A model generated the notes under the pieces. The model was not told the DNA's origin. It was given only the letters and a program-made list of their open reading frames with translations, and made no database searches. Both the position numbers and the translations under genes were made by a program. DNA of 64,000 bases from the NCBI RefSeq assembly GCF_900240995.1, contig NZ_LT965955.1, positions 384,638 to 448,637 of the forward strand, given 5' to 3'. This DNA is from Bacillus sp. Marseille-P3661 (GTDB taxonomy: Bacteria; Bacillota; Bacilli; Bacillales; Bacillaceae_J). Position 1 is the stretch's first letter, and the number at the start of each line of letters is the position of its first letter. Positions 26,600 to 64,000 of the stretch are shown in pieces.

Positions 26600-26674
26600 T
26601 ATTGATAAATTACAAATAAATACTATTTTCCCATTACTTTGGCAATGGAAATGGTTTTATTGGAGGAATTGAAA

Positions 26675-28330
26675 TTGAGAATTTCCAGTTCTCTAATTGT
26701 CTTACTCTTTTTTCTATTTTGCCAATTCCTTTATCCGGTTGAAATAAGCGGTAAGGGAAAAGTCGTACATATAGACCAGGAAGAATCGACAGTTAGCAAG
26801 GGGAACGCAAAAGGCTATATTGTGAAGTATAAAGCACCGAAATATTCGAGAATGTCATTGTCGAGCAGAGGTCAATTTAAGAACATATCATTTACTTCGA
26901 AAGATGAAGAAAAACAGAAACTTGAAGATCTACTTAATGACCCAACTGTTGAGTATGTTGTTCCTAACTACATAAGAACAACGCAAACATATAATGACCC
27001 ACTATACAAGGATCAATGGGCTATTCCAGCTATTAACTTAGATGATATACAAACAATAGACTTAAAGAATGATATAGTTGTGGCTGTCTTGGATACAGGG
27101 GTGGATTGTTCACATGAAGATCTTATTAATAGGTGTGTAGCTGGATATGATTTTGTAAATTTAGATACGGACCCAAGTGATGATTCTGCAGCAAGTCATG
27201 GAACGATGGTTGCTGGAATCATTTCTGCGGTTTCAAATAATAATACAGGAATAGTTGGGAGTGCACAAAATGCAAGTATCATGCCATTAAAGGTATTGGA
27301 TAAATACGGAAATGGCGATGATGCAACGATTATTCAAGCTATTCACTATGCAGCAGATTATGGAGCTGACATCATTAACTTAAGCTTAGGTGGTCCCGAG
27401 TTTTCAGAAGCTCTATGGGATGCAGTTAAATATGCCTACAATCACGGAGTGACTGTTGTTGCTGCATCTGGTAACAAAGGCAGATCCAGCGTGGACTATC
27501 CTGCAGGCTACCCAGAAGTAATGGCGGTTGGCAGTTTAAGCTCAAATGGATATAGATCGACATTTTCAAACTTTGGTCCTGCACTTGATCTAGTAGCACC
27601 TGGGGCAAATGTGATGACAACAGCAAGGTTTAGTGGCTATAAATTTGGAAGTGGGACATCTTTTTCATCTCCATATATAGCTGCAGCAGCAGCGATTATT
27701 AAGGGACAGCGTGGGGAGATTTCTCCGTCCGAAATAATGTGGGTTCTTGAAAAAGGCTCAACTGACCTAGGAATAGCAAACAGGGATAACGAGTATGGAT
27801 ATGGTGGGCTAAATCTATTAACAGCAACTATAGATCAGTCAAAACCTAATAGCATAGAGGAGCCAAATGAATCTATAGGTACCGCTTTTCCTCTAGAATA
27901 TGAACAAATCTATAATTTTAGTTTACAACAACCTAATGATGAAGATTGGTATAGGTTTGATATAAACTCGGGAGAATCATTGAAACTACAGGTATCGATG
28001 CCAGAGGACAATCTTCAAACTGATCTAGCAATTGTAAACTCTAGCGGAGAAATCGTTAATCAGATTACTACCTCTGATAAAAGTTTAATAAGTCTTCCTT
28101 TAAAGAAAGGTACATATACTATTAGGCTGAAAGAAAGGTATGGACATTGGTCCAAAGAAAACTATTCATTGCAATTAAGCAAGAATACAATTGACTTTAA
28201 CTTAGATCAAGAGATTGATATAAAAGACATTATTTTAGCTTCGAAAAAATTAGATTCTGACACAGAAATAAACTCAACGAATGACATAAAAAATGTGATT
28301 TCCCATTATGGTTATATATACCCAAAGTAA
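26675..28330 (+). CDS. Secreted subtilisin-like (S8) serine protease with PPC and degenerate dockerin domain
   Basis: About 551 residues. A signal peptide (RISSSLIVLLFFLFCQFLYP) is followed by an inhibitor-I9-like propeptide (about 25-110, ending VEYVVPNYI) and the S8 catalytic domain with D140 (VLDTGVD), H175 (SHGT) and S329 (GTSFSSP), so the triad is intact. Residues about 390-490 form a PPC-type beta domain (DEDWYRFDINSGESLKLQV). The last 50 residues (DFNLDQEIDIKDIILA and a shorter second unit ending IKNVISHYG) look like a dockerin whose first calcium loop is kept and whose second is eroded. The TTG start at 26675 follows TGGAGG by eight bases; an upstream in-frame TTG at 26639 lacks a ribosome binding site. 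The next gene begins 88 bases later and is probably cotranscribed. Confidence 0.87.
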   Translation: MRISSSLIVLLFFLFCQFLYPVEISGKGKVVHIDQEESTVSKGNAKGYIVKYKAPKYSRMSLSSRGQFKNISFTSKDEEKQKLEDLLNDPTVEYVVPNYIRTTQTYNDPLYKDQWAIPAINLDDIQTIDLKNDIVVAVLDTGVDCSHEDLINRCVAGYDFVNLDTDPSDDSAASHGTMVAGIISAVSNNNTGIVGSAQNASIMPLKVLDKYGNGDDATIIQAIHYAADYGADIINLSLGGPEFSEALWDAVKYAYNHGVTVVAASGNKGRSSVDYPAGYPEVMAVGSLSSNGYRSTFSNFGPALDLVAPGANVMTTARFSGYKFGSGTSFSSPYIAAAAAIIKGQRGEISPSEIMWVLEKGSTDLGIANRDNEYGYGGLNLLTATIDQSKPNSIEEPNESIGTAFPLEYEQIYNFSLQQPNDEDWYRFDINSGESLKLQVSMPEDNLQTDLAIVNSSGEIVNQITTSDKSLISLPLKKGTYTIRLKERYGHWSKENYSLQLSKNTIDFNLDQEIDIKDIILASKKLDSDTEINSTNDIKNVISHYGYIYPK

Positions 28331-28418: not shown

Positions 28419-31400
28419 ATGGCAAAAAAGATTGTTTTATTACTAATGGTTTTTATGTTAAACCTAGGTGTAATTGTGCCTAGTGGTGCTTTTGCAGTCG
28501 GAGAGTCTTCGTCCACAGGCAATGGAAGACACTCTTCCGAAAAACCTTCTGCAAAAGAGAGAAGTAAAAGTGAGCGAACCCAAAACTATAGTGCCAATAG
28601 CTCTGGTACATTGGTGTGGGTTGAGAGCTCTAAAAAGTTTGTTAAGGCAGGAGATACATTTTCTGTATATGTAGGTGTACAGAATGTATATGATTTATTT
28701 GGGGCTTCACTTGATATGAAGTTTAATCCTAATGAGGTAACAGCTTTAAACGTAACTCCAGGTGAGATATTTGGTGAATTAACGTCTGTTGATAGTCTTC
28801 CAGATGATTCTACAACATTTGATCGGGGTTATTTTTATAGCAAAACGGATAATGAAACAGGTGAGCTAACCTTTTTAAGCTTTTTAACGGGTAATGAACC
28901 TTCAATAAATGATGGGGGGCTTTTCGTTAAAATAGATTTCCAAGCTAATGCAGCTATTTCAACAGGGCAATTTCTAGCAACACTTACAGACTCACGTACA
29001 GCGTTTGACTCAGGGGAATATAATACGCTCATCCAACTTTCTGATTCTAATGCAGCTTCAATTTATTATGATGGAAATGCAGAATACTCCGAAGTAAATA
29101 TTACAGACGCGATTATAGCTGGAACAGTTTATGAGGAAACGACGAGTAATTTTAATATAGCAAAAGATGTATCCGTGAATTTATATAATAGTTCATCTGA
29201 ATTTGTTGATACAACTTCAGCTGATGACAATGGAAACTTCTATTTTAGTAATCCATCCATTACAGCAGGAACATATTATATAGAAGTAATAGGACAAAAT
29301 TATGAGCCGTATTTCTTTGACCTAGAGTTAACAGATACATCAACGGTGCATGAGGAACATATTTACCTTACTCCAAAAGGATTATATACGATTAATCTAA
29401 CTTGGGGAAGTTCGACGGTTACAGAGGACTTAGAGCTTGATTTACGTGTAAAAGTGCTTGACCGTTCAACTGGTGCATTTATAGACGAGATTAGTTGGAA
29501 CAATTCTGGTGCAACATATTTATCTCCATATCTAACACATCTTCAAGATACACATGGACCAAGCGGACATGAAATTGTTGCGGTTCATAGTCCAACAGAT
29601 TACTTATATGAAGTTACTGCTGTAAACTACTATGGAGAATTTTCAGCAGTAGAAGACGCTAATGTTAAAGTTACCGTTAATGATTATAATGGTGTAATTC
29701 TTGAAGAATATACTTATGATGGTGCAGCGCAAGGTAGTACATGGAGTGCTGTTCAATTTACATTTGATAGTTTAGGCGATATTCAATTACCAGATGGTGA
29801 AGGGCCACAACCACAAGATGCTGCTCTTTCTACCAATAGCATAAATGGAGATACGATTGCATTTGATATTTACGGTCAAGGGTTCTCAACTGCTCAAGAT
29901 GTTGAAGTTTGGTTATACCGTGATTATTCAAGCTACAACCAGTACTCAAGCAGTAGTTCCGAAGATCAAGAGGTTATCGAGTTAGTAAAAGAAGAAGATG
30001 GAGTCACTTCAACAGTACCGATGAAAAATCCTTCTTTAAGAACAAGCAGCGGTTATGACGATCAGGGTAGATATGCAGCAACAATTGGTGAAATTACCGA
30101 TACGTCTATTTCCGTAACAGGTGTTGAAGGTGCGAAACATGGCGATTATTTCGTAGAGGTTTATTTAGATGGTCAACATTTAACGCTTCAGAATGATCAT
30201 TTACGTTACCGTCCTGCGGGAATTTATGTGGAAGAGCTTATTAACGCTGGCAACTATCCATATGTTTTACCGCTAAATTATGATTCATATGACACTGATT
30301 ATTATCCAGCAGAGTTTCATGTTTACAATCTTCCAACAGCTTCACCAACCTTTGAGGTTGCTTTTGTAAATGCTGCTACAGGAACTGATGAGATCGTTGT
30401 CGATGGAGTAACTAGTGGTATCGGTGATCCAGGTCAATCGTATTTTACGTTTAATTTCCCTACTGATTTGTCAAAAGGGACGTACGAACCTGAAATAAGA
30501 GTCCTATCAGGTGCCGAAACATTAGCGACAATCCCACTTCCTTTAGTAATGGTTGGAGAACCATTTATAGAATGGGTAGATCTATATAAATTTCCATTGG
30601 GGGAAACTGAGTTTAGTTTTTATTTAGGAGCTAAGAATTTAAGTGGTTCTGACACTGTATCCTTAGAACTTTATCAAAGGGGCAGCACTACACCGACATT
30701 TACTGCAGTAGGGAACGTCGTGTATTCTGATTCGTATTTAACTCAAATTCGTTATAATTTCTCAAGTTTTCCTACAGGTTTACCAGAAGGCGATTATGAG
30801 CTTGTTATGAATGTAAACGGTGAAAAGAGCCTACCATATAAACTAAAAGGAACCTATAGTCCAATCTTACAGCATGTAACACCTCCTGCATATAAAGCGA
30901 ATGTCACGTCATTTTATGCATGGGTAAAAGGTTATAATATGAATTCAACTGATTTTAATGCAGAATTAGTTAATTTTTCTAATGAAATTATAGCAACAAG
31001 TCAAGAATCAGCTATAGTAGATGGCAACTATGGAAATGAAAAGTTGTTACAGTTTAAGATGACAGCTGATTCACCAATATTGTCAGGAGGTTATTTCCTG
31101 CGGATCTATGATTCTGCTGGGGAAGGAGTGACGGAGCTTTACATGAATGTTACGGAAACATTAAATGTATTTGGTTATCCATACTCCCTAAGTTACCCGG
31201 CAAGTATCGAAAATAGCTTTTATTTAAATGGTGTAAACCTTGATCAAGGAAACTGGGAATTAACATTAACAGATGCAAGTACTGGAAGTGTTGTACCTGA
31301 CGTAGTCCCAGTAACCAATGTGACAGTTGATGATTTTGGCCATGAAAAGCTAAATATCATTATTCCTGCACTATTGGAGGGTCAATATTATTTAGTAATT

Positions 31401-33872
31401 AGCAATACAGCATTATCGAATCCAATTACAATAACATTGAATGTCGGCGCAGCTACTGGGCCATTTGTACACTCCGTTCATATTGATGGACCGGATGAAG
31501 TGTTAAAGCCTTTAGCTGATTCAGCAAGCCATGAATTCATTGGAAGTGTCTTAGATCAATATGGACATGAAATGACGAATGAAGATGTGACCTGGTCAAT
31601 TGAGGAAACGGTTGAAGGTATTTCAATTGACTCAGTGACAGGAACATTAACAGTTCAAAATACGGCGGCAGCGAATTCCATCGTAACAATTAAAGCTACA
31701 TCAATCACACATCCAATGATTTATGCAACTAAGACAGTTACGATTAAAGAACAAGTTACTTCACCAATTGTTAATAGCATAGTTGTGGATGGTCCAATAA
31801 GTATTACCGTGCCACAATTAAGTAACGCAGTACAATACAATGCAACGGTTTATGATCAAGATGGAAACGTTATGTCAGGTGAACAAGTAGAGTGGTCACT
31901 TGCATACCCTGTTCAAGGTGTAAGCGTGAATAATACATCTGGTTTAGTGACTGTTCTTAATACAGCGAGTATAGGTTCATTTGAACTTATGGCTACATCG
32001 ATAACAGATTCAAGTAAGAGCGGGAATTTAGTTATCTCGTTGGTGAGTGGAATGCCTACAGATACAACACCGCCAGCAGTACCAACAGTCAATCCAGTAG
32101 ATAGTGATGATACGGTTGTAACAGGAACAGCAGAACCAGGTTCAGCAGTAAAAATAACTGTAAACGGCTATGAAATTGGCTATGACATCACCGATGGAAC
32201 TGGAGTCTATTCAGCAGCGATAGCGGCGCAAGCTACAGGTACAGAGCTAACCATAACGGCTACAGATGCAGCGGGAAATGAAAGTGAACCTGCAACGATA
32301 ATAGTTACAGAATCGACTACAAACCCTGTAGATGATACACCGCCGGCAGTGCCAACGGTAAATGCAGTGGATAGCGATGATACGGTCGTAACGGGAACAG
32401 CTGAACCAAATGCAGCAATAAAAATAAGTATTATGGGTTATGAAATAGGCTATGACTTCGCAGATGTAACAGGAGCGTTTTCAGTTGCAATTAACCCGCA
32501 AGCTGCAGGTACAGAGTTAATCATTACGGCCACAGATGCAGCAGGAAATGAAAGTGAGTCAGCATTCGTAACTGTATCGGAAGCAATTGTAAATCCGCCA
32601 GAAGATACAACACCGCCAGCTGTACCAGTGATTAATCCGGTGGATAGCGATGATACGGTCGTAACCGGAACATCAGAACCTGAATCTACTTTAGTTGTAA
32701 CGGTTAATAGTCTTGTAATTGGATTTACTTTTGCTGATGAAACAGGCGCATATTCAGCTGCGATTATGCCACAAGCTGCAGGAACTGAGATCACTGTGAC
32801 TGCAAAAGATGCAACAGGAAATGAAAGTGAACCAGCAAAGATAACTGTAACAGAAGCAAATCCACCGGTGGATACGACACCACCAGCAGCACCAACAGTC
32901 AATCCGGTAGATAGCGATGATACGGTTGTAACGGGAATGGCAGAAGCTGAATCTACAATAAAAGTAACCGTTTCGGGTAGTGTGATCGCAACGGGAACAG
33001 CAAATGAATATGGGGCCTTCTCAGTAGCAATTACACCACAAAATGCTGATACAGTCTTAGAAGTAACAGCAACAGACGCAGCCGAAAATGAAAGTGAGCC
33101 AGTATTTATTACCGTTAAGATAGCTGAAATAGAAACTGGCAATAATGGTGAATTTGCAAACGGAAAGATTATTGTTGATGGAAGAAATGTGAGTGGTAAA
33201 GTTAAACTTGATATAACGTATAATGAATTACCTGCCAATGTATCTGGTATTCAAATTGATATTCCTGTACCGCAAAATGCAGGGCTTAGCAATCCGGATA
33301 TTATATTAAACGAGGCCATAGGTCTAACTGAAGATGATATCCAAATAAATCAAGTTTCCAATAATGTTTATACGTTGTTAGTAGGTGGTAGTGAATTAGT
33401 GGCGAATCCATTACCTACTTCAGGTAAGATTGGTACGATTACATTCGATACAGCTTCTACTGAGAATATAGATTTAAGGTTCAATAAATTGATATTTACC
33501 TTAAAGTCTCTTGAAACGCCGCAGATTGCTGTTTCGAATGTAAGTATGGTGGTTAAATCTCTTATTCCAATACCTGAAAACCACTATGTATATGATGTGA
33601 ATAGAGATGGAAATATCGATATTACAGATGGGTCAATGATTCTTTATTGGCTTACAAATGAAATGGATATCCAAAATCAAATACCAAGTATTACTGTAAT
33701 CGACAGAAGTATAGATTATGGTGAGTTAGATGAATTGCGCTATTTCTATGACGTAAATCTTGATGGCGATATAAACGTTACAGATTACACGACGGTACTG
33801 TTCTGGCTCACAAATGAAATGGATATCCAAACTCAAAGACCACACTTTGATGGGATCCCAAATGTAAACTAA
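28419..33872 (+). CDS. Large secreted cohesin- and dockerin-containing Ig-like protein (1,817 aa)
   Basis: Residues 1-26 are a signal peptide (GAFA cleavage). Residues about 63-220 resemble a cohesin domain (VKAGDTFSVYVGVQNVYDLF, then GASLDMKFNP). Next come a carboxypeptidase-regulatory-like domain (about 225-310), a long beta-rich region to about 1010, two Big_2-like domains (about 1015-1205), and four Big_6-type Ig repeats (about 1214-1567, each with VDSDDTVVTG). A second cohesin-like domain (about 1576-1710, LPANVSGIQIDIPVPQNAG) precedes a textbook C-terminal dockerin with two calcium loops, DVNRDGNIDITD and DVNLDGDINVTD (about 1722-1811). Carrying both partners of a cohesin-dockerin pair, it could act as an adaptor scaffold. 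No catalytic domain was seen. It follows AAAGGAGG and sits between the protease and CFI-box genes. Confidence 0.88.
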   Translation: MAKKIVLLLMVFMLNLGVIVPSGAFAVGESSSTGNGRHSSEKPSAKERSKSERTQNYSANSSGTLVWVESSKKFVKAGDTFSVYVGVQNVYDLFGASLDMKFNPNEVTALNVTPGEIFGELTSVDSLPDDSTTFDRGYFYSKTDNETGELTFLSFLTGNEPSINDGGLFVKIDFQANAAISTGQFLATLTDSRTAFDSGEYNTLIQLSDSNAASIYYDGNAEYSEVNITDAIIAGTVYEETTSNFNIAKDVSVNLYNSSSEFVDTTSADDNGNFYFSNPSITAGTYYIEVIGQNYEPYFFDLELTDTSTVHEEHIYLTPKGLYTINLTWGSSTVTEDLELDLRVKVLDRSTGAFIDEISWNNSGATYLSPYLTHLQDTHGPSGHEIVAVHSPTDYLYEVTAVNYYGEFSAVEDANVKVTVNDYNGVILEEYTYDGAAQGSTWSAVQFTFDSLGDIQLPDGEGPQPQDAALSTNSINGDTIAFDIYGQGFSTAQDVEVWLYRDYSSYNQYSSSSSEDQEVIELVKEEDGVTSTVPMKNPSLRTSSGYDDQGRYAATIGEITDTSISVTGVEGAKHGDYFVEVYLDGQHLTLQNDHLRYRPAGIYVEELINAGNYPYVLPLNYDSYDTDYYPAEFHVYNLPTASPTFEVAFVNAATGTDEIVVDGVTSGIGDPGQSYFTFNFPTDLSKGTYEPEIRVLSGAETLATIPLPLVMVGEPFIEWVDLYKFPLGETEFSFYLGAKNLSGSDTVSLELYQRGSTTPTFTAVGNVVYSDSYLTQIRYNFSSFPTGLPEGDYELVMNVNGEKSLPYKLKGTYSPILQHVTPPAYKANVTSFYAWVKGYNMNSTDFNAELVNFSNEIIATSQESAIVDGNYGNEKLLQFKMTADSPILSGGYFLRIYDSAGEGVTELYMNVTETLNVFGYPYSLSYPASIENSFYLNGVNLDQGNWELTLTDASTGSVVPDVVPVTNVTVDDFGHEKLNIIIPALLEGQYYLVISNTALSNPITITLNVGAATGPFVHSVHIDGPDEVLKPLADSASHEFIGSVLDQYGHEMTNEDVTWSIEETVEGISIDSVTGTLTVQNTAAANSIVTIKATSITHPMIYATKTVTIKEQVTSPIVNSIVVDGPISITVPQLSNAVQYNATVYDQDGNVMSGEQVEWSLAYPVQGVSVNNTSGLVTVLNTASIGSFELMATSITDSSKSGNLVISLVSGMPTDTTPPAVPTVNPVDSDDTVVTGTAEPGSAVKITVNGYEIGYDITDGTGVYSAAIAAQATGTELTITATDAAGNESEPATIIVTESTTNPVDDTPPAVPTVNAVDSDDTVVTGTAEPNAAIKISIMGYEIGYDFADVTGAFSVAINPQAAGTELIITATDAAGNESESAFVTVSEAIVNPPEDTTPPAVPVINPVDSDDTVVTGTSEPESTLVVTVNSLVIGFTFADETGAYSAAIMPQAAGTEITVTAKDATGNESEPAKITVTEANPPVDTTPPAAPTVNPVDSDDTVVTGMAEAESTIKVTVSGSVIATGTANEYGAFSVAITPQNADTVLEVTATDAAENESEPVFITVKIAEIETGNNGEFANGKIIVDGRNVSGKVKLDITYNELPANVSGIQIDIPVPQNAGLSNPDIILNEAIGLTEDDIQINQVSNNVYTLLVGGSELVANPLPTSGKIGTITFDTASTENIDLRFNKLIFTLKSLETPQIAVSNVSMVVKSLIPIPENHYVYDVNRDGNIDITDGSMILYWLTNEMDIQNQIPSITVIDRSIDYGELDELRYFYDVNLDGDINVTDYTTVLFWLTNEMDIQTQRPHFDGIPNVN

Positions 33873-33932: not shown

Positions 33933-35324
33933 ATGAAACCAATTAGAATGTACCTTGCCATTATTTTAGCGTTTTTTATATGTAGTCCAATCGTACACAC
34001 TGCAAGTGCAGCGAACGATATTGTCGTAACAGAGAAGACAATTAACGACATTCTAACAATAACCGGTAAAAATGATGGAGAAACTTTAGAACTTAACTTC
34101 AAATACAATAATTTAGCTGGAGAATTTACGGCAGCACAAATAGAAGTGAATTCAAATTCAAAGATGAATATGGATGGTACCTTTACGATTGGTGCGAATC
34201 TTGAGAGTGGAGATATCCAAAGTAGCCAAATAGTGGATACAGTTTATCAAGTAATAATAAGTGGATCTCGGTTAACGAAAACACCATATCCAGGGGGCAA
34301 ATCAGGCGAAATTGGCACGATTCGTTTTCAGATGTCTGAACCTGGTGATGTGGCAATTGAATTTAAATCACTCATTGTTAATCAAAGGTCACTATCGAAT
34401 GCCGCGCCGGTTAACATAAATGATCAGGATAATTATGTAGTCAATTTTCCAGGTCCATCTGCAAGTGGAGGAGATACAACACCACCATCACCACCAACTG
34501 TAAATCCAGTGGATAGCGATGATACGGTCGTAACTGGAACCGCAGAAGCGGGTTCAACTGTAAAAGTTAGTGTGAATGGAACAATAATTGGGACAGGTGC
34601 AGCTACATCAGCTCAATCATATTCGGTATCTATTCCAGCTCAAAACGCAGGCACAGAATTAGCTGTAACCGCAACGGATGCTGCTAACAACGCAAGTCAA
34701 CCGACAATGATTGTAGTGTCAGATGCAACACCGGAAGTGACATATACTATTACAGTTGTTCCAGTAGTTGCAACGGATTCTAAAGTTTCAGGGCTTATTC
34801 AGGTTGAAGGATTGGCTGCGTTACCTACAGGATTATCAGTTCAGCTAAAGCAAGGGAATAGCTCGTTAGGAAATGGAAATGTTAATCAAGATGGATCATT
34901 TGAAATACCTGTATCAAGCAATCTTGTTGCCGGAGCGTACAAGGTAGAGCTTCTTAATGCAGCTAAGGAAAAGTTAGCTGAAAATTCATTTGAGGTATTA
35001 GTGGATGAATGTTTCATTGCAACAGCATCTTTTGGTTCAAAATTTGAACCATCGGTTACATTGCTGCGTAATTTCCGTGATGATGTACTATTACAATCGA
35101 CTGCAGGGGAAACGTTTGTTAAATTCTATTATAGCCATTCACCAAAGGTCGCAAATGTAATAGCGGATAGTGACACCTTAAAGACTGTTACGCGAGTTGC
35201 TCTTACTCCAGTAATTGCAGCAGTATACTTAACATATAATCCTGTATGGATTGTGTTATTGGTAGTGGCTTTTGCTGCTCTATGGATGGTAAGACGTAAT
35301 CGTAGAAGTAATATTCAAGCATAA
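33933..35324 (+). CDS. Cohesin-like, Ig-like protein with CFI-box C-terminal region and membrane anchor
   Basis: A 463-residue exported protein. Signal peptide about 1-27 (HTASAA). Residues about 28-175 form a cohesin-like beta-sandwich (LELNFKYNNLAGEFTAAQIE, then SGEIGTIRFQM) similar to the second cohesin-like domain of the preceding protein. A Big_6 repeat (about 184-268) shares the VNPVDSDDTVVTGTAE word with that protein. After another beta domain, C360 opens CFIATASFGSKFEPSVTLLR, the CFI-box found in a family of C-terminal regions of exported proteins. The protein ends with a helix (VWIVLLVVAFAALWMV) and the basic tail RRNRRSN, so it should be fixed in the membrane with the cohesin outside. 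It starts after GGGAGG and ends at a short terminator. The CFI-box function is not known. Confidence 0.85.
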   Translation: MKPIRMYLAIILAFFICSPIVHTASAANDIVVTEKTINDILTITGKNDGETLELNFKYNNLAGEFTAAQIEVNSNSKMNMDGTFTIGANLESGDIQSSQIVDTVYQVIISGSRLTKTPYPGGKSGEIGTIRFQMSEPGDVAIEFKSLIVNQRSLSNAAPVNINDQDNYVVNFPGPSASGGDTTPPSPPTVNPVDSDDTVVTGTAEAGSTVKVSVNGTIIGTGAATSAQSYSVSIPAQNAGTELAVTATDAANNASQPTMIVVSDATPEVTYTITVVPVVATDSKVSGLIQVEGLAALPTGLSVQLKQGNSSLGNGNVNQDGSFEIPVSSNLVAGAYKVELLNAAKEKLAENSFEVLVDECFIATASFGSKFEPSVTLLRNFRDDVLLQSTAGETFVKFYYSHSPKVANVIADSDTLKTVTRVALTPVIAAVYLTYNPVWIVLLVVAFAALWMVRRNRRSNIQA

Positions 35325-36331: not shown

Positions 36332-38539
36332 ATGAATAAAGGTTTAAAAATCACTACTTCTGCAGCATTATTAGCTGGTGTAGTTGCTCCTGTAGCAGTA
36401 TCTTCAGTTGACGCAGCAGCTAGCACAGCATCAATCTCATCTTTAACAGTTCCAACAGTAAAGGCTACAACTGCTCAAACTACTGGTGTAGTTAAGATCG
36501 TTGTTCCTGGTGGAGCTAGAACATCTGGTGAAACATTAATCTTAGATTTAGGTGACGCTAAGATCGCAGGATTCAGTACAGTTGGTGCTGCTAACGTAGG
36601 TACAGTAGGTACTACTCAATCTCCATCTGGAGTAACTACACAACCAACTGTTGACCTTCAACTTAACGAAGATTCAACATTCACAGCATCTACAGATGTT
36701 TCTGTAAGTGCAGAAGAAAAGAAAGTTAAAATTCAATTCAACACAGATGTAGCTTATACAAGCGAAGCTGTATTATATGTTGAACTTAAAAATCTAGATA
36801 TGACAGATGTAGCATCTGGTGAATATAAAGTTAAATTATCAGCATCACCTAACAGTGGTCTTCCAACAGGCGATGTAACTGTTGCTAACGTATTTGGTGA
36901 AGATGAAGATAAAGTTACTGTAACTTCAGGATCATTAGATACACACAACAGCACATTTGAATTCAAATTAGGTTTCAAAGAAGATTCTTTAAAATCTATC
37001 AAGGCTGGCGACTATGTTAAAGTTAAATTACCAGCTGGTTACAAGTGGACTACAGCATCAAATTCAAGCATTGGTTTCAGCAAAGTCTATGGTGATACTT
37101 TCACAACTAGTCAATTCACTGTAACTCCTGAAAGTGATGAGCGAGTATTAAAAATTGAATTCACAACTGATACAACTGTATCTTCAAACTTCGAAATCTC
37201 AAACTTACGTTTCTTAGTAGATGATCAAGATCTAGCTAAAAACGGCGAAATCATTGCTGATATCGATGCAGAAGGTTTTGATATCGGTGTATCTGAAATT
37301 AAAGTTGGAACTTACGGTCAATTTGGAACAACTATCTCAGCTAAAGATGATGAAAAAGTTGTAGTTTCTGGTCAAACTGATCAAAAAGTAAACGATATTA
37401 CTATTAAAGAATCAATTAAAGAATCATTAGTTGCTGGTAGAACAGTAGTTATCGAATTACCAGACGGCGTTAAATTTACTGATGTTGACACTAACACAAT
37501 CACTGATAACGGTGTAACATTAAATGGAAATACTTCAATTTCTTCAGCTAAAGACAAGTTAACTTTAACAGTTAGTGGTCAATCTTCAAAAGCTGCTGAA
37601 CTTAAGATCAAAGGATTGAAAGTATCTGCAAAAGCTGGATTCACTGGCGATGTTATCGCTAAGATCTCTGGTACTGCAGGTGTTGAAGGCGAAGTTAAGA
37701 TTGCTGAAGCTAAGCCTGCTGTAACTGCAACAGTTGAAAAGGCTAATGATGTTATCATCGGTCTTGGAGCACAAAAAGTTGCTGACATCGAAATCACAGA
37801 GTCTGTTAAAGAAGCTTTCTTAAACACAACATCTGGTACAGTTCAATTAGTATTACCAGAAGGCGTACACTTCGAAAAACTTCCTACTCTTGAAGTTGAT
37901 GGCGACTTAGACCTTGACGATGTAAACTGGGGTTCTGATAAGAGCACAGTAACATTCGATGTTGATGCACAATCTATTAAAGCTAGCAAAATCACAGTTA
38001 AAGACGTAAGCCTACGCGTTTACCGTGATGTTCCAGAAGGAAACATCGAGTTATCAATCAAAGGTGGAGATCTTGTAAACAATACTGCAGACTTCACTGC
38101 TAATGATGACACAGCTGCTAAAGTTGTTATCGCTCGCGTTGCAACTCCAGCTGAAGGTAAAGGTCTTGCTGGTGAAGTAGTATTCACAGTTGGCGCTACA
38201 ACTTATGTTGCTAATGGCGTTGAAAAGACTATGGATGTTGCTCCATTCATCGAAGGTGGACGTTCTTACATGCCAATCCGTTATGTAGCTGAAGCTGTAG
38301 GTGCAGATTTCATCACTTGGGATCAAGCAACTCAAACTGCTACAATTATGAAAGGCGACCGTGTAGTTCAACTTACTGCTGGTAGCAAGGCATTAAAAGT
38401 TAACGGTGCATCAATCTCTATGGATGCTGCTGCACAAGTTAAAGAAGGCCGTACAGTTCTTCCTGTTCGTTTTGTAGGTCAAGCTTTAGGTGCAAACGTT
38501 GACTGGAACGAAGCTGATCAAACAGTAACAGTAAAATAA
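36332..38539 (+). CDS. S-layer-like surface protein with C-terminal stalk (copper amine oxidase N-like) domains
   Basis: A 735-residue exported protein. Residues 1-30 are a signal peptide (LAGVVAPVAVSSVDAAA). Residues about 31-610 are several beta-rich repeats of similar form (for example DDEKVVVSGQTDQKVNDITI and later ANDVIIGLGAQKVADIEI). Residues about 615-735 hold a stalk-type domain pair named after copper amine oxidase N-termini: GGRSYMPIRYVAEAVGADFI and EGRTVLPVRFVGQALGANVD. No enzyme domain is present, so the oxidase name does not describe its function. The strong promoter, long leader, good AGGGAGG site (nine bases before ATG) and own terminator suggest abundant expression, as for an S-layer subunit. 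It lies directly upstream of the glycan locus and could be its glycosylation target (inference). Confidence 0.82.
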   Translation: MNKGLKITTSAALLAGVVAPVAVSSVDAAASTASISSLTVPTVKATTAQTTGVVKIVVPGGARTSGETLILDLGDAKIAGFSTVGAANVGTVGTTQSPSGVTTQPTVDLQLNEDSTFTASTDVSVSAEEKKVKIQFNTDVAYTSEAVLYVELKNLDMTDVASGEYKVKLSASPNSGLPTGDVTVANVFGEDEDKVTVTSGSLDTHNSTFEFKLGFKEDSLKSIKAGDYVKVKLPAGYKWTTASNSSIGFSKVYGDTFTTSQFTVTPESDERVLKIEFTTDTTVSSNFEISNLRFLVDDQDLAKNGEIIADIDAEGFDIGVSEIKVGTYGQFGTTISAKDDEKVVVSGQTDQKVNDITIKESIKESLVAGRTVVIELPDGVKFTDVDTNTITDNGVTLNGNTSISSAKDKLTLTVSGQSSKAAELKIKGLKVSAKAGFTGDVIAKISGTAGVEGEVKIAEAKPAVTATVEKANDVIIGLGAQKVADIEITESVKEAFLNTTSGTVQLVLPEGVHFEKLPTLEVDGDLDLDDVNWGSDKSTVTFDVDAQSIKASKITVKDVSLRVYRDVPEGNIELSIKGGDLVNNTADFTANDDTAAKVVIARVATPAEGKGLAGEVVFTVGATTYVANGVEKTMDVAPFIEGGRSYMPIRYVAEAVGADFITWDQATQTATIMKGDRVVQLTAGSKALKVNGASISMDAAAQVKEGRTVLPVRFVGQALGANVDWNEADQTVTVK

Positions 38540-56254: not shown

Positions 56255-59200
56255 ATGAGGCGGTTTGCGGCGGGTATTTTTAGTACTTTAATACTGATCC
56301 TAATGGTTCCAATGCTGGTATTTGCGTGGGACGATACGGGGCAAGGAATTGAGGTTTCAATTGAGACTGGATCTATACAAGGTAAGTTAGATAAGGTAAT
56401 TTCGACAGTAGAAGTATATCGGAATGGAGAGTTACTTGATAGGAAAGAATTGGGTGAGGACTATGGCTATATAACGACAGAAGAATTTAATTATAGTCTG
56501 CCATTTGATTATTACAGTGGTATTGGCCTATATGGCAATCCGTTTTTACCAGGTGACAGAATCGTATTATTAAACCACAACACATCAGATGCTGTTGTAA
56601 CAAAGACACCAACGATTGTATATGAGTTTACAGTTCCGAAGTTAACTTCGACTGTTACAAAAAATGAAGATGAAGGACTTACGGTAATCAATGGTGAAAC
56701 ATCACCGAATAAAACAATTGGAATTTATACGATGGAAGGATATTACGATTGGGCATTAACAGGTGAAAGTGTTGCCGATTCGAATGGTCAGTTCCAATTT
56801 AACCTTCGTCCAGGACTTGGCACAGATGAAAGCGTAAAAATACAATATGATGATAGCGTAGGAACAATAAAAGTTGCTTATAGTATTGAACGATCACATC
56901 CTGAACATGTAGAGGCTGCCATTCACGTACCTTATGGTAATGACTATCGTCACATTGTAAATCAATCTATTCCACTAAAAGTAAGAGTTCTTAACAATAA
57001 TAATGAAAACGAACTCGTCACAAATGTACAATGGTCTGTTGAATCAGAAGATGGGCAACCAACAACAGGGGCATCCGTGGACAGTAGCGGGACTTTTGCA
57101 GCGACAGCTCCAGGTGGTTATAAAGTGATTGCTATATTGTCAGATTACAATAATCAAAAGCTAGAAAATTTTATATATATTAACGCACTTGGAGAACCAA
57201 CGGAGATTTACTTTTACCCAGTAAATAATGCTTCAACGTACTCGTATTCGGTTGGTGAACCGATTGAATTTGACGTAGATTTACGGGACGAATTTTCCAA
57301 CAGATTACTTTACAATGGCGGCTTTCACTGGGAAATTGAAAAATATGATAAAAATTTGTACTACGACGATCCTAGAGATCCAGATCATGATAAATTCATT
57401 CCATCCTTTGATGCAACCATGTCAGTCGATAGGGTGTTTACCGCTTCGGCAGATGGACATTATCGAATTACATTAACATCAGATGAATATCCGGATTTAC
57501 CTCCAGCCGTATATACTGTATTAGTTGTAGGAGATTTACAAGCAGCAAAACTCGAAACAGATAAAACAATCATCAACGTAGGCGAGAGTATAGACTTAGA
57601 CTTTGGAATTTATGACTCGAATTATAACGAGCTCCCATTAGAATATAATGATGGCTACGATTTGGATAACAGCAAGTACCAATATGACTGGGTTATTGGC
57701 TATCGCAGCACTGGTTATACACATTGGGGAGCACCTAGTGATACGTATACGTATATCGATCGACCAGAAGGTGTCATTCAATTCGATAAGCCCGGAAAAT
57801 ATACGATCTTTTTCCGTGTAACTAAACAAGTGAATTATTACGCTACGGATACATGGGGCGGGCTACAATCCTATGTAGATATTGAGGTAAAAGACCCTGC
57901 ACTTGAACAAGTAAAGGATATCAGAATTACTCAGGTAGATTACCCCGAGGTAAAAAGCCCTGACTATGTTGAAAACTATGCATCATTTAAAGTAGAAGCA
58001 ATCGATGAGAATGGTGATGTAGTTCCAGGGGTAGATTTCACGTATGAAGGAAGCAATTGGTATGATAGCGTAATTGAGGCAAATGGCAATGTTAGTGTAA
58101 GAATCTATGGAATGTGGGACGGCTATTTCTTGAAGGCAACGGTTACTGATAAGCCGGAAATAACGAAAACGCATTATTTTTCCGTATTCTCACCTAATTA
58201 CGAGAATATAGGAAGTGTTGAGCTTCAGCGCGAAAGTGATAATGGACCTGATGCATCGACGATTTATACAAGATATGACCAAATTGGTTTCATTGAACAA
58301 AGTCTTCAAAGCTATCCATTAAAAATGACAGTTAAAGATATAAATGGAGAGGTGATTCCGCCTGGAGACTATAATAGTAATTACCAAGGAACAACCTATT
58401 TATATGCTGAAACATTAGATGGAAAGCCTACAGAAAATATTCAGTTTGTGAATAGCGAATTTACAGCATCGACACTTTTTTATGCGACAAAGCCTGGCGA
58501 TTATAAAATCATTGCAAAATCAGCCGAAAATCCAGAAATACAGGATGAAATGGTGATTCATGTAATCGATCGAGCACAAGCGATTAGAAGTGCTGCCATT
58601 AGCATTGACGACGAACAAAAGCCATATACGAGTGATCGTTTGAATTTTATAGGTAATGCCTATGATATCACGGGTACAGAAATTCCAAATGAGGTATTTA
58701 CATGGGCAGTATATAATGAAGATGGTTCAAAGGCCGATGATGTAATCGCAATGGAATGGGATAGTCCTGTATCATTGGATTACTATTATAAGCATTCCAT
58801 CGACTTAGTATTCCCAAGGCCAGGTCAATACAAAATTGTTGCAAAATCTACAGCCAATCCTTTAATTAAAACTTCTTATGATATTTTAATAGAAAGTAAG
58901 CCTGCATTGGCAGGGGTTAATTATCATCTATTAGATAAAAGTATTGAAGGTTATGTAAGCGAAGGAATTAACGATTTAACCATTAAGGTAATTCGTGACA
59001 ATGTAGAAATAGATTCACATGCTGTTACGATCGATTATGGTGGACATTTTTATCATTATAATTGGACAAATGAGCCACTGCCAGGAGATACCATTGTCCT
59101 AGAATATGATAATGGTTCATCAGATTCTTTCGTTATTGAAGATATTCAGGCCATTTATGATGTGAAAAACCATTCTATCGTTGGAAAAACAGAGCCTAAT

Positions 59201-60517
59201 CGAGATGTAGAAGTTTTGGTTTATGTGCCTGACGACACGCTTACTAATAAAGGGACATCTACAGAGACGGGGACATTTGAAATCGCTCTAGATACAACTG
59301 ACCAAGACACAATATTTGATTATTCTGTATCAACTATTTCCGAGGAAGGTGTGACCTTTACATCACGGTTTTATCCAGTTGAGCTACAGCTTGACACATA
59401 TTGGAGAAATTTAAATGGTTGGCTGCCTGAAGGTGTGGATAGTACGGTAACGATCACGAAATCAGATGGTACGGTTGTCGTAGACCAACATTTACTTGAT
59501 CCTAGTAATTATGGGAACTATCTGCAAGTATGGGAATTAAATGATGGAGATATCGTAACCGTAAATATCGGTGATTTCTATGAAGAATCCATTACAGTGC
59601 TAACGGAATTACCAGTCTATATAGATAATACTACGAAGACTATTTCAGGATTTATACCGGGTGATTATGATATGACCCTCAGCATTGGATGGCAACCTTA
59701 CGAAGTTGCGGTAGATGAATTAGGTTTCTTCAATTTTAGTTTTGAAGGGTTAACTGACTATAATGGTTTTCCAATTAATTCATTAACGATAAATGATTTT
59801 GATATTTATCTTGGTAATTCATTAATTGAAATGATGGTTGAACCGATTGAAGGGAATGTAGAACCACCACCTTTAGAGGGCGATTATGATCACAATGATG
59901 ACGGTGTAGTCGATGCAACGGATTTGAAAATGGTAATAGTTGAGTATGGATCAAATTCTGCTACATCTTCTACAGATATTGATTCCAATGGAACGGTTGA
60001 TATTTATGATGTTGTTCTACAAGCGATACAGCTTGGTTATTCACCAATTTCAGGAGTTTCAAGCGGCAGTGGTGGAGGAAGTTCACCAACGAATTCTGAT
60101 ACGACATATGAGTCTTCGAGTACGATAGAAGAACATGATGGTGAGACAATCATAATAGAAACGTATTCTCCAAGATCTCGACTGGAAGATAGAAATGAAC
60201 GTCGAATACCGCGTGAAGAACAAAGCACCGACGTTCAAGAAGAACCAGACAGCATTACTGACCAAGAGCAATCAGAAGTTACAGAAGAGGAAAGCGGTGA
60301 AACTACAGCAGAGATGTCGGAAATAACAGAAGAGGAGCAAAGTAGTGAATCTACGGTAAAGCAGTCGAATATGACAGAAGAGCAAAGCAATGAACCTGCT
60401 CCAGAGCAGACAGAAGTGACAGAAGAGCAATCTATACCTGAACAGTCAGATGCTGCTGTAGTTGCAGAGCAGAGTGCTGAACCTACACAGGAACATGGAG
60501 ATGTAGTTGAAGAATAG
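56255..60517 (+). CDS. Large secreted Ig-like protein with internal dockerin and acidic tail (1,420 aa)
   Basis: A signal peptide (AAGIFSTLILILMVPMLVFA, about 1-24) is followed by about 1,180 residues of beta-rich Ig-like domains, several with the form VKVEAIDENGDVVPGVDFT or the related Big-type pattern. Residues about 1209-1265 are a dockerin with two calcium loops, DHNDDGVVDATD and DIDSNGTVDIYD. Unlike most dockerins it is not C-terminal: a Gly/Ser linker (SSGSGGGSSPTN) leads to a 130-residue Glu/Gln/Ser/Thr-rich tail with repeated VTEEQS-like words. The tail could be a wall-spanning or calcium-binding extension. No catalytic domain was seen. It follows AGGGAGG by seven bases, and a terminator follows. 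It may dock on the cohesin-like proteins of 28419-35324 (inference). Confidence 0.85.
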   Translation: MRRFAAGIFSTLILILMVPMLVFAWDDTGQGIEVSIETGSIQGKLDKVISTVEVYRNGELLDRKELGEDYGYITTEEFNYSLPFDYYSGIGLYGNPFLPGDRIVLLNHNTSDAVVTKTPTIVYEFTVPKLTSTVTKNEDEGLTVINGETSPNKTIGIYTMEGYYDWALTGESVADSNGQFQFNLRPGLGTDESVKIQYDDSVGTIKVAYSIERSHPEHVEAAIHVPYGNDYRHIVNQSIPLKVRVLNNNNENELVTNVQWSVESEDGQPTTGASVDSSGTFAATAPGGYKVIAILSDYNNQKLENFIYINALGEPTEIYFYPVNNASTYSYSVGEPIEFDVDLRDEFSNRLLYNGGFHWEIEKYDKNLYYDDPRDPDHDKFIPSFDATMSVDRVFTASADGHYRITLTSDEYPDLPPAVYTVLVVGDLQAAKLETDKTIINVGESIDLDFGIYDSNYNELPLEYNDGYDLDNSKYQYDWVIGYRSTGYTHWGAPSDTYTYIDRPEGVIQFDKPGKYTIFFRVTKQVNYYATDTWGGLQSYVDIEVKDPALEQVKDIRITQVDYPEVKSPDYVENYASFKVEAIDENGDVVPGVDFTYEGSNWYDSVIEANGNVSVRIYGMWDGYFLKATVTDKPEITKTHYFSVFSPNYENIGSVELQRESDNGPDASTIYTRYDQIGFIEQSLQSYPLKMTVKDINGEVIPPGDYNSNYQGTTYLYAETLDGKPTENIQFVNSEFTASTLFYATKPGDYKIIAKSAENPEIQDEMVIHVIDRAQAIRSAAISIDDEQKPYTSDRLNFIGNAYDITGTEIPNEVFTWAVYNEDGSKADDVIAMEWDSPVSLDYYYKHSIDLVFPRPGQYKIVAKSTANPLIKTSYDILIESKPALAGVNYHLLDKSIEGYVSEGINDLTIKVIRDNVEIDSHAVTIDYGGHFYHYNWTNEPLPGDTIVLEYDNGSSDSFVIEDIQAIYDVKNHSIVGKTEPNRDVEVLVYVPDDTLTNKGTSTETGTFEIALDTTDQDTIFDYSVSTISEEGVTFTSRFYPVELQLDTYWRNLNGWLPEGVDSTVTITKSDGTVVVDQHLLDPSNYGNYLQVWELNDGDIVTVNIGDFYEESITVLTELPVYIDNTTKTISGFIPGDYDMTLSIGWQPYEVAVDELGFFNFSFEGLTDYNGFPINSLTINDFDIYLGNSLIEMMVEPIEGNVEPPPLEGDYDHNDDGVVDATDLKMVIVEYGSNSATSSTDIDSNGTVDIYDVVLQAIQLGYSPISGVSSGSGGGSSPTNSDTTYESSSTIEEHDGETIIIETYSPRSRLEDRNERRIPREEQSTDVQEEPDSITDQEQSEVTEEESGETTAEMSEITEEEQSSESTVKQSNMTEEQSNEPAPEQTEVTEEQSIPEQSDAAVVAEQSAEPTQEHGDVVEE

Positions 60518-61122: not shown

Positions 61123-64000
61123 GTGTCGAAGAAGAGTAAAAATTCTCACAAAAAGTTTGTAGCAACAACAATTTCAACAGCGGTTGTGGCTTCAGCGGCG
61201 TCTGCTGTAGCAGTACCTGCAATCGATGCAGCTAGTAATTTCAGCGATGTTTCAAAAGGGGCTTTCTATGAAGAGGCAGTGAATGCTCTTGCACAAAAAG
61301 GAGTTCTTGGCGGCTATGAAGATGGCACGTTCAAACCTGCAAAACACGTAACACGTGCGGAAGCGGCAAAGATCTTAGCGTATGACTTAGGCCTAAGCTC
61401 TCAAAGCGCTACCTCTACATTCAGTGATGTGAAAACTGGTGATTGGTTCTATCAACCTGTGAGTGCATTATCACAAGCAGGCGGTATTGGCGGTTATGAA
61501 GATGGAACGTTTCAACCAAATAAAACAATCACTCGTGCTGAAATGGCAAGTATGCTTGTTAAGGCATATGGCTTAAAAGTAGAAGAAGAAGTTAGTCTTC
61601 CATTTACAGATGTATCTTCTACTAGTTGGTATGTTTCAGCTGTAGAAGCATTATATGCTAATAATATTACTTCAGGAAAATCAGCGACTAGCTTTGCTCC
61701 AAATGATGTGGTGACTCGTGGAGAAATCGCAGCGTTTGTATATCGCGCTAGTAAGCTAACTGAAACGCCAGTCATTAAAGGCTCTACAATCGAAAATATT
61801 ACAGATACGGATATTACAATTTCGGGTGTTACCTATACGGTAACGGATAGCGTTAAAAATATTTTAGGTTCACACAATGCGGCTGTTTTAGCAGGTGCAT
61901 CTGTGCAGTTTGAAGAAACAAATGGTGTGATCTCGAAGGTAACAGGACTACAGCTTAATGCTAGTGGTAAATCAGCAACAACTGAGTTTGCTAGCAATGT
62001 AGTGTTAGATGGAAAAGGTTCAACAATTTCTGGCAATGTAGTTATCAATGGTGATTACATATCTTTGAAAAATGTAACAGTTGATGGCGATTTAACGATT
62101 TCTGAAAAGTTAGCAAATGATTTCTATTCTGAAAAATTAACTGTAAAAGGTGACACAGTTGTAAACGGTGGCGATGACAATACAGTTGTTTTCAAAGATT
62201 CAAAGCTTGAAAATGTCAAAGTAAATAAAGCGGACGTTCGGGTCGAAGCAAAAGGTTCAACGACTGTGAAAGAAATTACAATTTCAAAAGACGCGACGAT
62301 TGTGTCTGATATCACAATCACAAAGATTAAGGTTGAAAAAGACGTGAAGCTTTCGTTAGGCAATGATACTAAAGTTGATAACATCGAGTTACCTGAAGGT
62401 GTGGAACTGAAAGATGTAGTAACAAGTAGTTCTGCTAGAAAAAACATAAAAGAAGTCAACGATTCGAGAAATTCAGAGTATAGCTCTGGTAGTGGCGGCG
62501 GCGGTGGTGGAGGTAGCAGTAGTTCTCCAAGTACACCAACTCCAGGTAATACTCACCCACCTGTAGCTAAGCCGAGTTTAGATAGAGAAGTAGCAGAAGG
62601 AGCAGCTAATTTAGTATTTAATGCTTCGGATTTAGCGACCGATGCTGACGGCAGCGCATTATCATTTACTGGTGCTCCTATTAGTTCTAACGGAACAGCC
62701 GCTACTGTGTCACTAGTTAACGGCCAATTAGTTGTTAATGTTGCAGATGATATCCTATCTGATGATGTAACGACAATAACTGTAGATGTAACAGATGGTA
62801 AAGCAACTACTACGATATCGTTTGATATTACAGTAACAAATGAATTTATGAATATTACTGGAAACTACGATGGAAACAACGAAACAATTACTGTTCCGGT
62901 TAATGTTTTAGCTACAGCAGTAGTGAGTAATATGGAAGTATTAGGCGATTTAATTATCGATCCAGGTGATGATGGTGAAGTTACGTTAGATAACGTTACG
63001 GCACAGAACATTATTGTAAGATCAGGTAGTATGAGTTCTGTTATTTTAAATAATACAAGTGTTAGTGGAAACTTAAAAGTTGAAAACGATGATGATGTTC
63101 GAATCGAATTTGGTGCAGGTACAGTAGTTAATAAAACAACTGTTAATACAACGGCTAATTTAGAGGTGAATCCTGCAGCTGTAGGTGCAAATGCTCCAAT
63201 TATTTCAGAAATTGAAATTGCTCCTTCTAATGTCAGTACAACAAATGACTCTGTAACATTAGCGGGGGACTTTGGGAACTCAAAAGTAAAGGTTACTAAG
63301 GCTGCAAAAGTTACAGCTGCAACTGAAGATGCACAAGGAAATCCAGTGACTTCTAAGATTAATAGTTTGGAAGTAAACATCCCAGAAGGCGGCGATAATA
63401 CAGTTGAATTAACAGGGGAGAAGTTTGCAGAAACAAAAGTTAACATTTCAAGTGGTGCCAAGTTAACGGGTACGAAGGTTGATAAAGTCACAGTAAGTGC
63501 TGACTCAGGTGCTGTAGAAGTTGATGTTCCTTCAAATGAGGTAGAAGCTGCTGGTAATGCAGTAGTAGCAATTCAACAAGCAACAACTACGATTACACAA
63601 ATCAAGGCTCAAATTAAGATCTTAGAAGACTTACTAGCTCAAATTACTAAATTAGTGGGTACAGACTTAAGTAAGATTGTTGCATCAGATGAAACTGGAA
63701 GTGAAACTCAAACCAATGTATCTGATACAGTTAGGGAAAATCCTGGAGCGCAAGTTACTGAAGTGCCGCTATCTGATTTACTTGCCATTTCAAACATGCA
63801 AGTTTCTAACGGCGAAATAAAATTAATGTTTAATATTGCGCGTGAAGAACTTGAAGATGATTTTGCACTTACAGATGTAACATTTGAAGGTTTGGCTGGT
63901 ACACCTGTACTTCAAGACTATACTGGCAAAACAGCAACGTATACGTTTGATAGAATTGAGCGAGGAACTACACAACAAACGGTTATTATTTCAGCTAGTT
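61123..64000 (+). CDS. SLH-domain S-layer protein (partial, runs off window)
   Basis: An open frame of 959 codons without a stop at the window edge. The start is GTG 61123, seven bases after GGGGG. Residues 1-38 are a signal peptide (KKFVATTISTAVVASAAS, cleavage near AIDAA). Three SLH domains follow (about 40-210): FSDVSKGAFYEEAVNALAQK with GYEDGTFKPAKHVTRAEA, then FSDVKTGDWFYQPVSALSQA with GYEDGTFQPNKTITRAEM, then FTDVSSTSWYVSAVEALYAN with FAPNDVVTRGEI. The rest is beta-rich repeats (for example GNVVINGDYISLKNVTVDGD), a poly-Gly/Ser linker near residue 460 and a Big-type domain. SLH domains bind pyruvylated wall polymer. This is likely a second S-layer or S-layer-associated protein. Confidence 0.92.
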   Translation, partial: MSKKSKNSHKKFVATTISTAVVASAASAVAVPAIDAASNFSDVSKGAFYEEAVNALAQKGVLGGYEDGTFKPAKHVTRAEAAKILAYDLGLSSQSATSTFSDVKTGDWFYQPVSALSQAGGIGGYEDGTFQPNKTITRAEMASMLVKAYGLKVEEEVSLPFTDVSSTSWYVSAVEALYANNITSGKSATSFAPNDVVTRGEIAAFVYRASKLTETPVIKGSTIENITDTDITISGVTYTVTDSVKNILGSHNAAVLAGASVQFEETNGVISKVTGLQLNASGKSATTEFASNVVLDGKGSTISGNVVINGDYISLKNVTVDGDLTISEKLANDFYSEKLTVKGDTVVNGGDDNTVVFKDSKLENVKVNKADVRVEAKGSTTVKEITISKDATIVSDITITKIKVEKDVKLSLGNDTKVDNIELPEGVELKDVVTSSSARKNIKEVNDSRNSEYSSGSGGGGGGGSSSSPSTPTPGNTHPPVAKPSLDREVAEGAANLVFNASDLATDADGSALSFTGAPISSNGTAATVSLVNGQLVVNVADDILSDDVTTITVDVTDGKATTTISFDITVTNEFMNITGNYDGNNETITVPVNVLATAVVSNMEVLGDLIIDPGDDGEVTLDNVTAQNIIVRSGSMSSVILNNTSVSGNLKVENDDDVRIEFGAGTVVNKTTVNTTANLEVNPAAVGANAPIISEIEIAPSNVSTTNDSVTLAGDFGNSKVKVTKAAKVTAATEDAQGNPVTSKINSLEVNIPEGGDNTVELTGEKFAETKVNISSGAKLTGTKVDKVTVSADSGAVEVDVPSNEVEAAGNAVVAIQQATTTITQIKAQIKILEDLLAQITKLVGTDLSKIVASDETGSETQTNVSDTVRENPGAQVTEVPLSDLLAISNMQVSNGEIKLMFNIAREELEDDFALTDVTFEGLAGTPVLQDYTGKTATYTFDRIERGTTQQTVIISAS

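Follow-up and report, generated by a model that had tools for sequence, protein, structure and literature searches.

A CFI-box protein with a cohesin-fold domain in Bacillus sp. Marseille-P3661: a candidate membrane anchor for a cohesin/dockerin assembly

What does a CFI-box contribute to a protein that begins with a cohesin-like domain? The question is raised by a 463-amino-acid protein (P0001) encoded at 33933..35324 on the + strand of the stretch of DNA analysed here (the window, 64 000 nucleotides of contig NZ_LT965955.1). A sequence-only reading had recognized in it the CFI-box pattern of exported proteins, from the peptides CFIATASFGSKFEPSVTLLR and RRNRRSN, and had proposed that it anchors a complex in the membrane and that its conserved cysteine may be modified or cleaved. 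Both peptides were located exactly where they had been reported, on the + strand.

Layout of P0001 and of its gene row

P0001 was divided into seven parts, all on the + strand. The signal peptide MKPIRMYLAIILAFFICSPIVHTASA (33933..34010) was read off the translation. It is followed by a cohesin-like domain (residues 27-174, 34011..34454), a Big_6 Ig domain (residues 185-264, 34485..34724, Pfam 79.5 bits) and an Ig-like beta domain for which the model is of low confidence (residues about 268-357, 34734..35003). The CFI-box domain (residues 360-428, 35010..35216) matched profile positions 1-69 of 69 of the NCBIfam model NF041770 (CFI_box_CTERM), with E 7.8e-27 and 92.9 bits, more than twice the curated cut-off of 40 bits; a match this far beyond chance confirms the family assignment. 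It starts 104 residues ahead of the stop, as expected for a C-terminal region. It is all-helical by prediction (model pLDDT about 73-95 over this stretch). After it come the transmembrane helix (TM) VWIVLLVVAFAALWMV (residues 438-453, 35244..35291), taken from the translation and the model and also seen in relatives, and the basic cytoplasmic tail RRNRRSNIQA (35292..35321), read from the translation. The mature protein has one cysteine only, that of the CFI motif. LPXTG is absent from the sequence, so P0001 does not look like an LPXTG sortase substrate, and SLH gave no match.

The CFI-box is an already catalogued domain, with an annotation name and without a function. The term CFI-box and the motif CFIATA retrieved no paper in the open library searched. 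A sequence search of solved structures with the CFI part gave no match, and Foldseek with the CFI model gave nothing under 0.001, the match list being filled by the Ig-like part and not by the helical part. P0001 is the only NF041770 match in its own genome.

P0001 is the last of three genes on the + strand, separated by gaps of 88 and 60 bases in which no terminator-like sites were found, and the three probably form one operon. The first gene (26639..28330) encodes an S8 subtilase with a PPC domain. Its C-terminus carries a single dockerin-type loop, DFNLDQEIDIKDIILASK (28193..28246), that is, half a dockerin, scoring 15.7 bits with the profile against 14.0 for the best of 2000 shuffles. The second gene (28419..33872) encodes a scaffold-like protein of 1817 amino acids with a cohesin, four Big_6 domains, a cohesin-like domain and a dockerin. 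The scaffold cohesin (residues 67-224, 28617..29090) was over the cut-off of Pfam Cohesin in the six-frame search (E 3.9e-11); it also scored 105 bits with a home-made profile, in which the domain itself had been included. The second, cohesin-like domain (33135..33554) is a relative of the P0001 N-terminal domain. The dockerin (33549..33812) consists of two Ca-loop motifs, DVNRDGNIDITD and DVNLDGDINVTD, with unusually wide spacing. It scored 16.3 bits with Pfam Dockerin I (PF00404, gathering score 22.9) and 34.1 bits with a home-made profile built from 25 dockerins, all from other genomes. A dockerin-like pair is also present at 59885..60013 (+ strand) in ORF 56255-60517, a possible further client of the complex. 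Near the operon, at 36332-38539 and 61123-63999 of the window, surface-layer-type proteins were noted, with a copper amine oxidase N-domain and with SLH-like repeats, the latter recognized by eye.

The N-terminal domain and the anchor model

The earlier description of P0001 as cohesin-like held for the predicted fold and failed for the sequence. Pfam Cohesin (PF00963) gave no match in P0001 in six-frame and protein searches, a home-made profile from 13 cohesins gave -1.1 bits, and hhalign gave a probability of 1.5%; a cohesin assignment by sequence was rejected. The only homologue found lies towards the C-terminus of the scaffold encoded upstream (31% identity over P0001 residues 38-156, 27-31% over the domain); a search of 299 genomes from the class gave none outside the window. 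For residues 27-174 AlphaFold, working from an alignment of two sequences, predicted a beta sandwich (pTM 0.69, mean pLDDT 73). Foldseek with this model returned a list dominated by cohesins (E 3.5e-5). The best VIA-align match was 2jh2 (Z 12.2, rmsd 2.5, 123 residues); other beta-sandwich folds were listed too, at Z 9-10. At the level of predicted fold, the domain is a cohesin jelly-roll beta sandwich.

The gene order was then compared with that of other CFI-box loci. The survey of CFI-box proteins for cohesin domains suggested by the sequence-only reading gave a cohesin in the same ORF in three of the 84 other CFI ORFs from genome contigs (L061, L062 and L090), and cohesins were present in 19 of the 39 CFI genomes searched. 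L061 and L062 are near-copies on one contig of a Dethiobacter MAG and L090 is from an Omnitrophota MAG, which makes two independent lineages beyond the window. The gene just upstream has a dockerin at its end in all three cases; for L090 it encodes a cohesin and then a terminal dockerin, as in the window. In L090 the CFI-box is also paired with an NCBIfam choice-of-anchor domain.

From these elements a model was drawn up in which P0001 would be exported through its signal peptide and retained in the cytoplasmic membrane by the CFI-box domain, the transmembrane helix and the basic tail. The two Ig-like spacers would hold up the cohesin-fold domain, which most likely binds the C-terminal dockerin of the scaffold encoded directly upstream. 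The scaffold's own cohesin could take dockerin-type tails, for example that of the S8 protease or that of ORF 56255. The product of the operon would be a small membrane-tethered non-cellulosomal cohesin/dockerin complex. What the analysis shows directly is the CFI-box match, the predicted fold of the N-terminal domain, the upstream cohesin and dockerin motifs, and a gene order that recurs in other genomes; the binding pairs, the membrane retention and a CFI domain lying on the membrane are what we infer here. Taken as a whole, P0001 is probably the CFI-box/TM membrane anchor of such a complex.

The anchor role, as proposed earlier, is supported by the TM helix and basic tail, the lack of LPXTG and the dockerin ending the gene directly upstream. 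The cohesin and CFI ORFs with a dockerin-ended upstream gene (L061, L062, L090) and the topology suggested by three fusion proteins described below (L104, L110, L113) also speak for it. Counted against it were the missing cohesin sequence signal, a fold derived from two aligned sequences, the fact that a cohesin fold alone is no proof of dockerin binding, the scaffold dockerin lying below the Pfam gathering score with its motifs far apart, and the half dockerin of the protease. Some of these points would also suit an Ig-like spacer that merely resembles a cohesin, P0001 then binding no dockerin: the sequence carries no cohesin signal and the VIA-align list extends to other beta sandwiches at Z 9-10. 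Such a spacer is unlikely, since in both Foldseek and VIA-align cohesins dominate and the best score stands out clearly, the homologue of the domain adjoins a dockerin in the protein encoded upstream, and the gene order recurs with true cohesins.

Exported and cytosolic-looking CFI-box proteins

Of the 84 long-form relatives, 81 carry a TM downstream of the box and 81 end in a net-positive tail, a uniformity due in part to selection, because they were gathered by patterns requiring CFIATA or a neighbouring motif and with a TM-containing query. Signal peptide and TM were both scored in 59 of the 70 long forms with a complete 5' end, using a simple hydrophobicity rule for the signal peptide. Conservation lies in the 69-aa domain; the TM itself is variable. 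A Gly-rich stretch precedes the cysteine in 45 of the 84 relatives. In L104, L110 and L113 the CFI-TM-basic loop is followed by a second, signal-like hydrophobic segment (e.g. PASA/LDINNF), which ends in a signal-peptidase-like site, and then by a beta-barrel-like protein; the L104 tail gave a weak match to an outer-membrane protein model, below the cut-off of that model. Because the second part of these fusions must be exported, the CFI domain has to lie outside and the basic loop inside. In other exported proteins the CFI tail accompanies GDSL lipase, M6 or M10 peptidase, nuclease or fn3 domains and thus serves varied cargo.

Clustering of the 2156 ORFs around CFI genes gave lineage-specific neighbours only, and the candidate of a conserved neighbour acting as CFI processing enzyme was dropped. 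S8 proteases were present at 5 of 80 CFI loci (raw count). Genes resembling pilM, pilN, pilO, pilP and pilQ were noted near a family of CFI-box proteins at L057, L064, L092, L095, L098, L103 and L111, mostly in Geobacteraceae. Matches to NF041770 below the cut-off (profile about 10-63) were seen within S8 subtilases of Bacilli (L028-L051, e.g. L028:1501-1635), after the N-terminal part and ahead of the catalytic domain. Their cysteine lies about 19-20 residues before LR, which is the CFI-box spacing, and from the sequence this stretch is possibly a divergent CFI-like domain inside proteases.

Domains of the NF041770 type without TM were found in plasmid, phage and viral records, at 73-87 bits for the short forms scanned. 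They end a cold-shock protein of Burkholderia anthina (L200), an Mrr and WYL protein of the archaeon Haloquadratum (L201) and a TPR protein of Acinetobacter lwoffii (L202). The CFI-box is thus not confined to exported proteins. Other cases are a 571-aa CFI protein encoded in line with an Hsp70 gene (L203), as well as proteins of about 140 aa beside PD-(D/E)XK or Cas4-like nuclease genes (L206, L207, L210, L211, L214, L217). The genes of the latter mostly overlap the adjoining nuclease gene, and their N-terminus (ELATLGLCEQQA..., GTASHE) resembles the beginning of a nuclease of the Cas4 type, as though the enzyme had been split. In the plasmid set (n=20), 19 proteins had neither signal peptide nor TM and one had a TM only. 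The cysteine is kept in all of these proteins, and the box stands near the C-terminus in every example read. In 27 short forms the final helix carries a positive charge (+1 to +6, mostly +2 to +4) and is amphipathic, with a mean moment of 0.46 and a mean z over shuffles of 1.4.

These cytosolic-looking forms, as read from their sequences, argue against the CFI-box as a sorting or cleavage tag restricted to export. A C-terminal sorting tag of the MYXO-CTERM kind, with the invariant cysteine lipidated and the tail cut by an intramembrane protease, would fit the Gly-rich stretch and the broad order of cysteine motif, TM and arginine-rich tail (PMC11980579). In MYXO-CTERM, however, the short motif is next to the TM, the tag occurs in dozens of copies per genome and a dedicated protease is present (PMC11980579). 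The CFI-box has no motif directly before the TM, as MYXO, GlyGly and PEP tags do: in P0001 the cysteine is about 75 residues ahead of the helix, and the 69-aa conserved domain lies in between. The present genome has a single copy and Geobacteraceae genomes with CFI have between one and three, not dozens. Exosortase models gave no match in the genome and rhombosortase models none over the cut-off, in a search for processing enzymes that covered these two families. A cysteine cut or lipidated on the export side only fits poorly, because the TM-less short forms, with strong NF041770 matches, all keep it. The sorting tag is accordingly very improbable, and the modification or cleavage of the cysteine put forward at the outset found no support in these results.

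Short and long forms are best joined by a helical domain that could dock on either face of the membrane, with an optional TM that is added on export. Three observations are consistent with such docking: nearly all plasmid relatives lack signal peptide and TM, whereas most long forms carry the two; the last helix of the short forms is basic and amphipathic; and the box keeps its position near the C-terminus. Amphipathic basic helices are nevertheless common in soluble domains and nucleic-acid binders, and DNA-linked genes account for several of the short forms; binding of nucleic acid or of protein would be equally possible for the box, and docking from either face is less likely than not. The more inclusive proposal is rather doubtful: instead of a sorting signal, the CFI-box would be a helical domain that docks on the membrane and has an invariant cysteine; it would end cytosolic proteins of bacteria and of an archaeon (cold-shock, restriction-endonuclease, TPR) and, once a TM is added, exported ones, and in the window it would anchor a cohesin/dockerin assembly.

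Comparison with known systems

The pairing with a cohesin gives the CFI-box a testable job, the anchoring of a cohesin/dockerin complex by a route that uses neither LPXTG nor SLH. Its occurrence on cytosolic proteins narrows the possible roles of its cysteine and helices and allows membrane docking to be tested against sorting in small constructs. Compared with the catalogued NF041770 family, P0001 shows no difference in the domain itself or in the TM and basic tail that follow; its cohesin-fold N-terminal partner is unusual, given the three cohesins in 84 other CFI ORFs. In cellulosomes, cell-surface anchoring scaffoldins are cohesin proteins that SLH or sortase signals attach to the surface. 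P0001 resembles them as a surface-held cohesin beside a dockerin-ended scaffold. It differs by its CFI-box and TM anchor, with no LPXTG and no SLH match, by a very divergent cohesin, and by an operon with a protease and no cellulase. In fold, its N-terminal domain comes closest to cohesin modules of Clostridium perfringens that are likewise non-cellulosomal (2jh2, 2vo8, 2w1n; Z 11.5-12.2), at about 10% identity; there the module belongs to a glycoside hydrolase. MYXO-CTERM, which shares the invariant cysteine, TM helix and basic tail, is the nearest described tag to the CFI-box; the latter differs in length (a 69-aa domain), in position, in its few copies per genome and in being found also without a TM.
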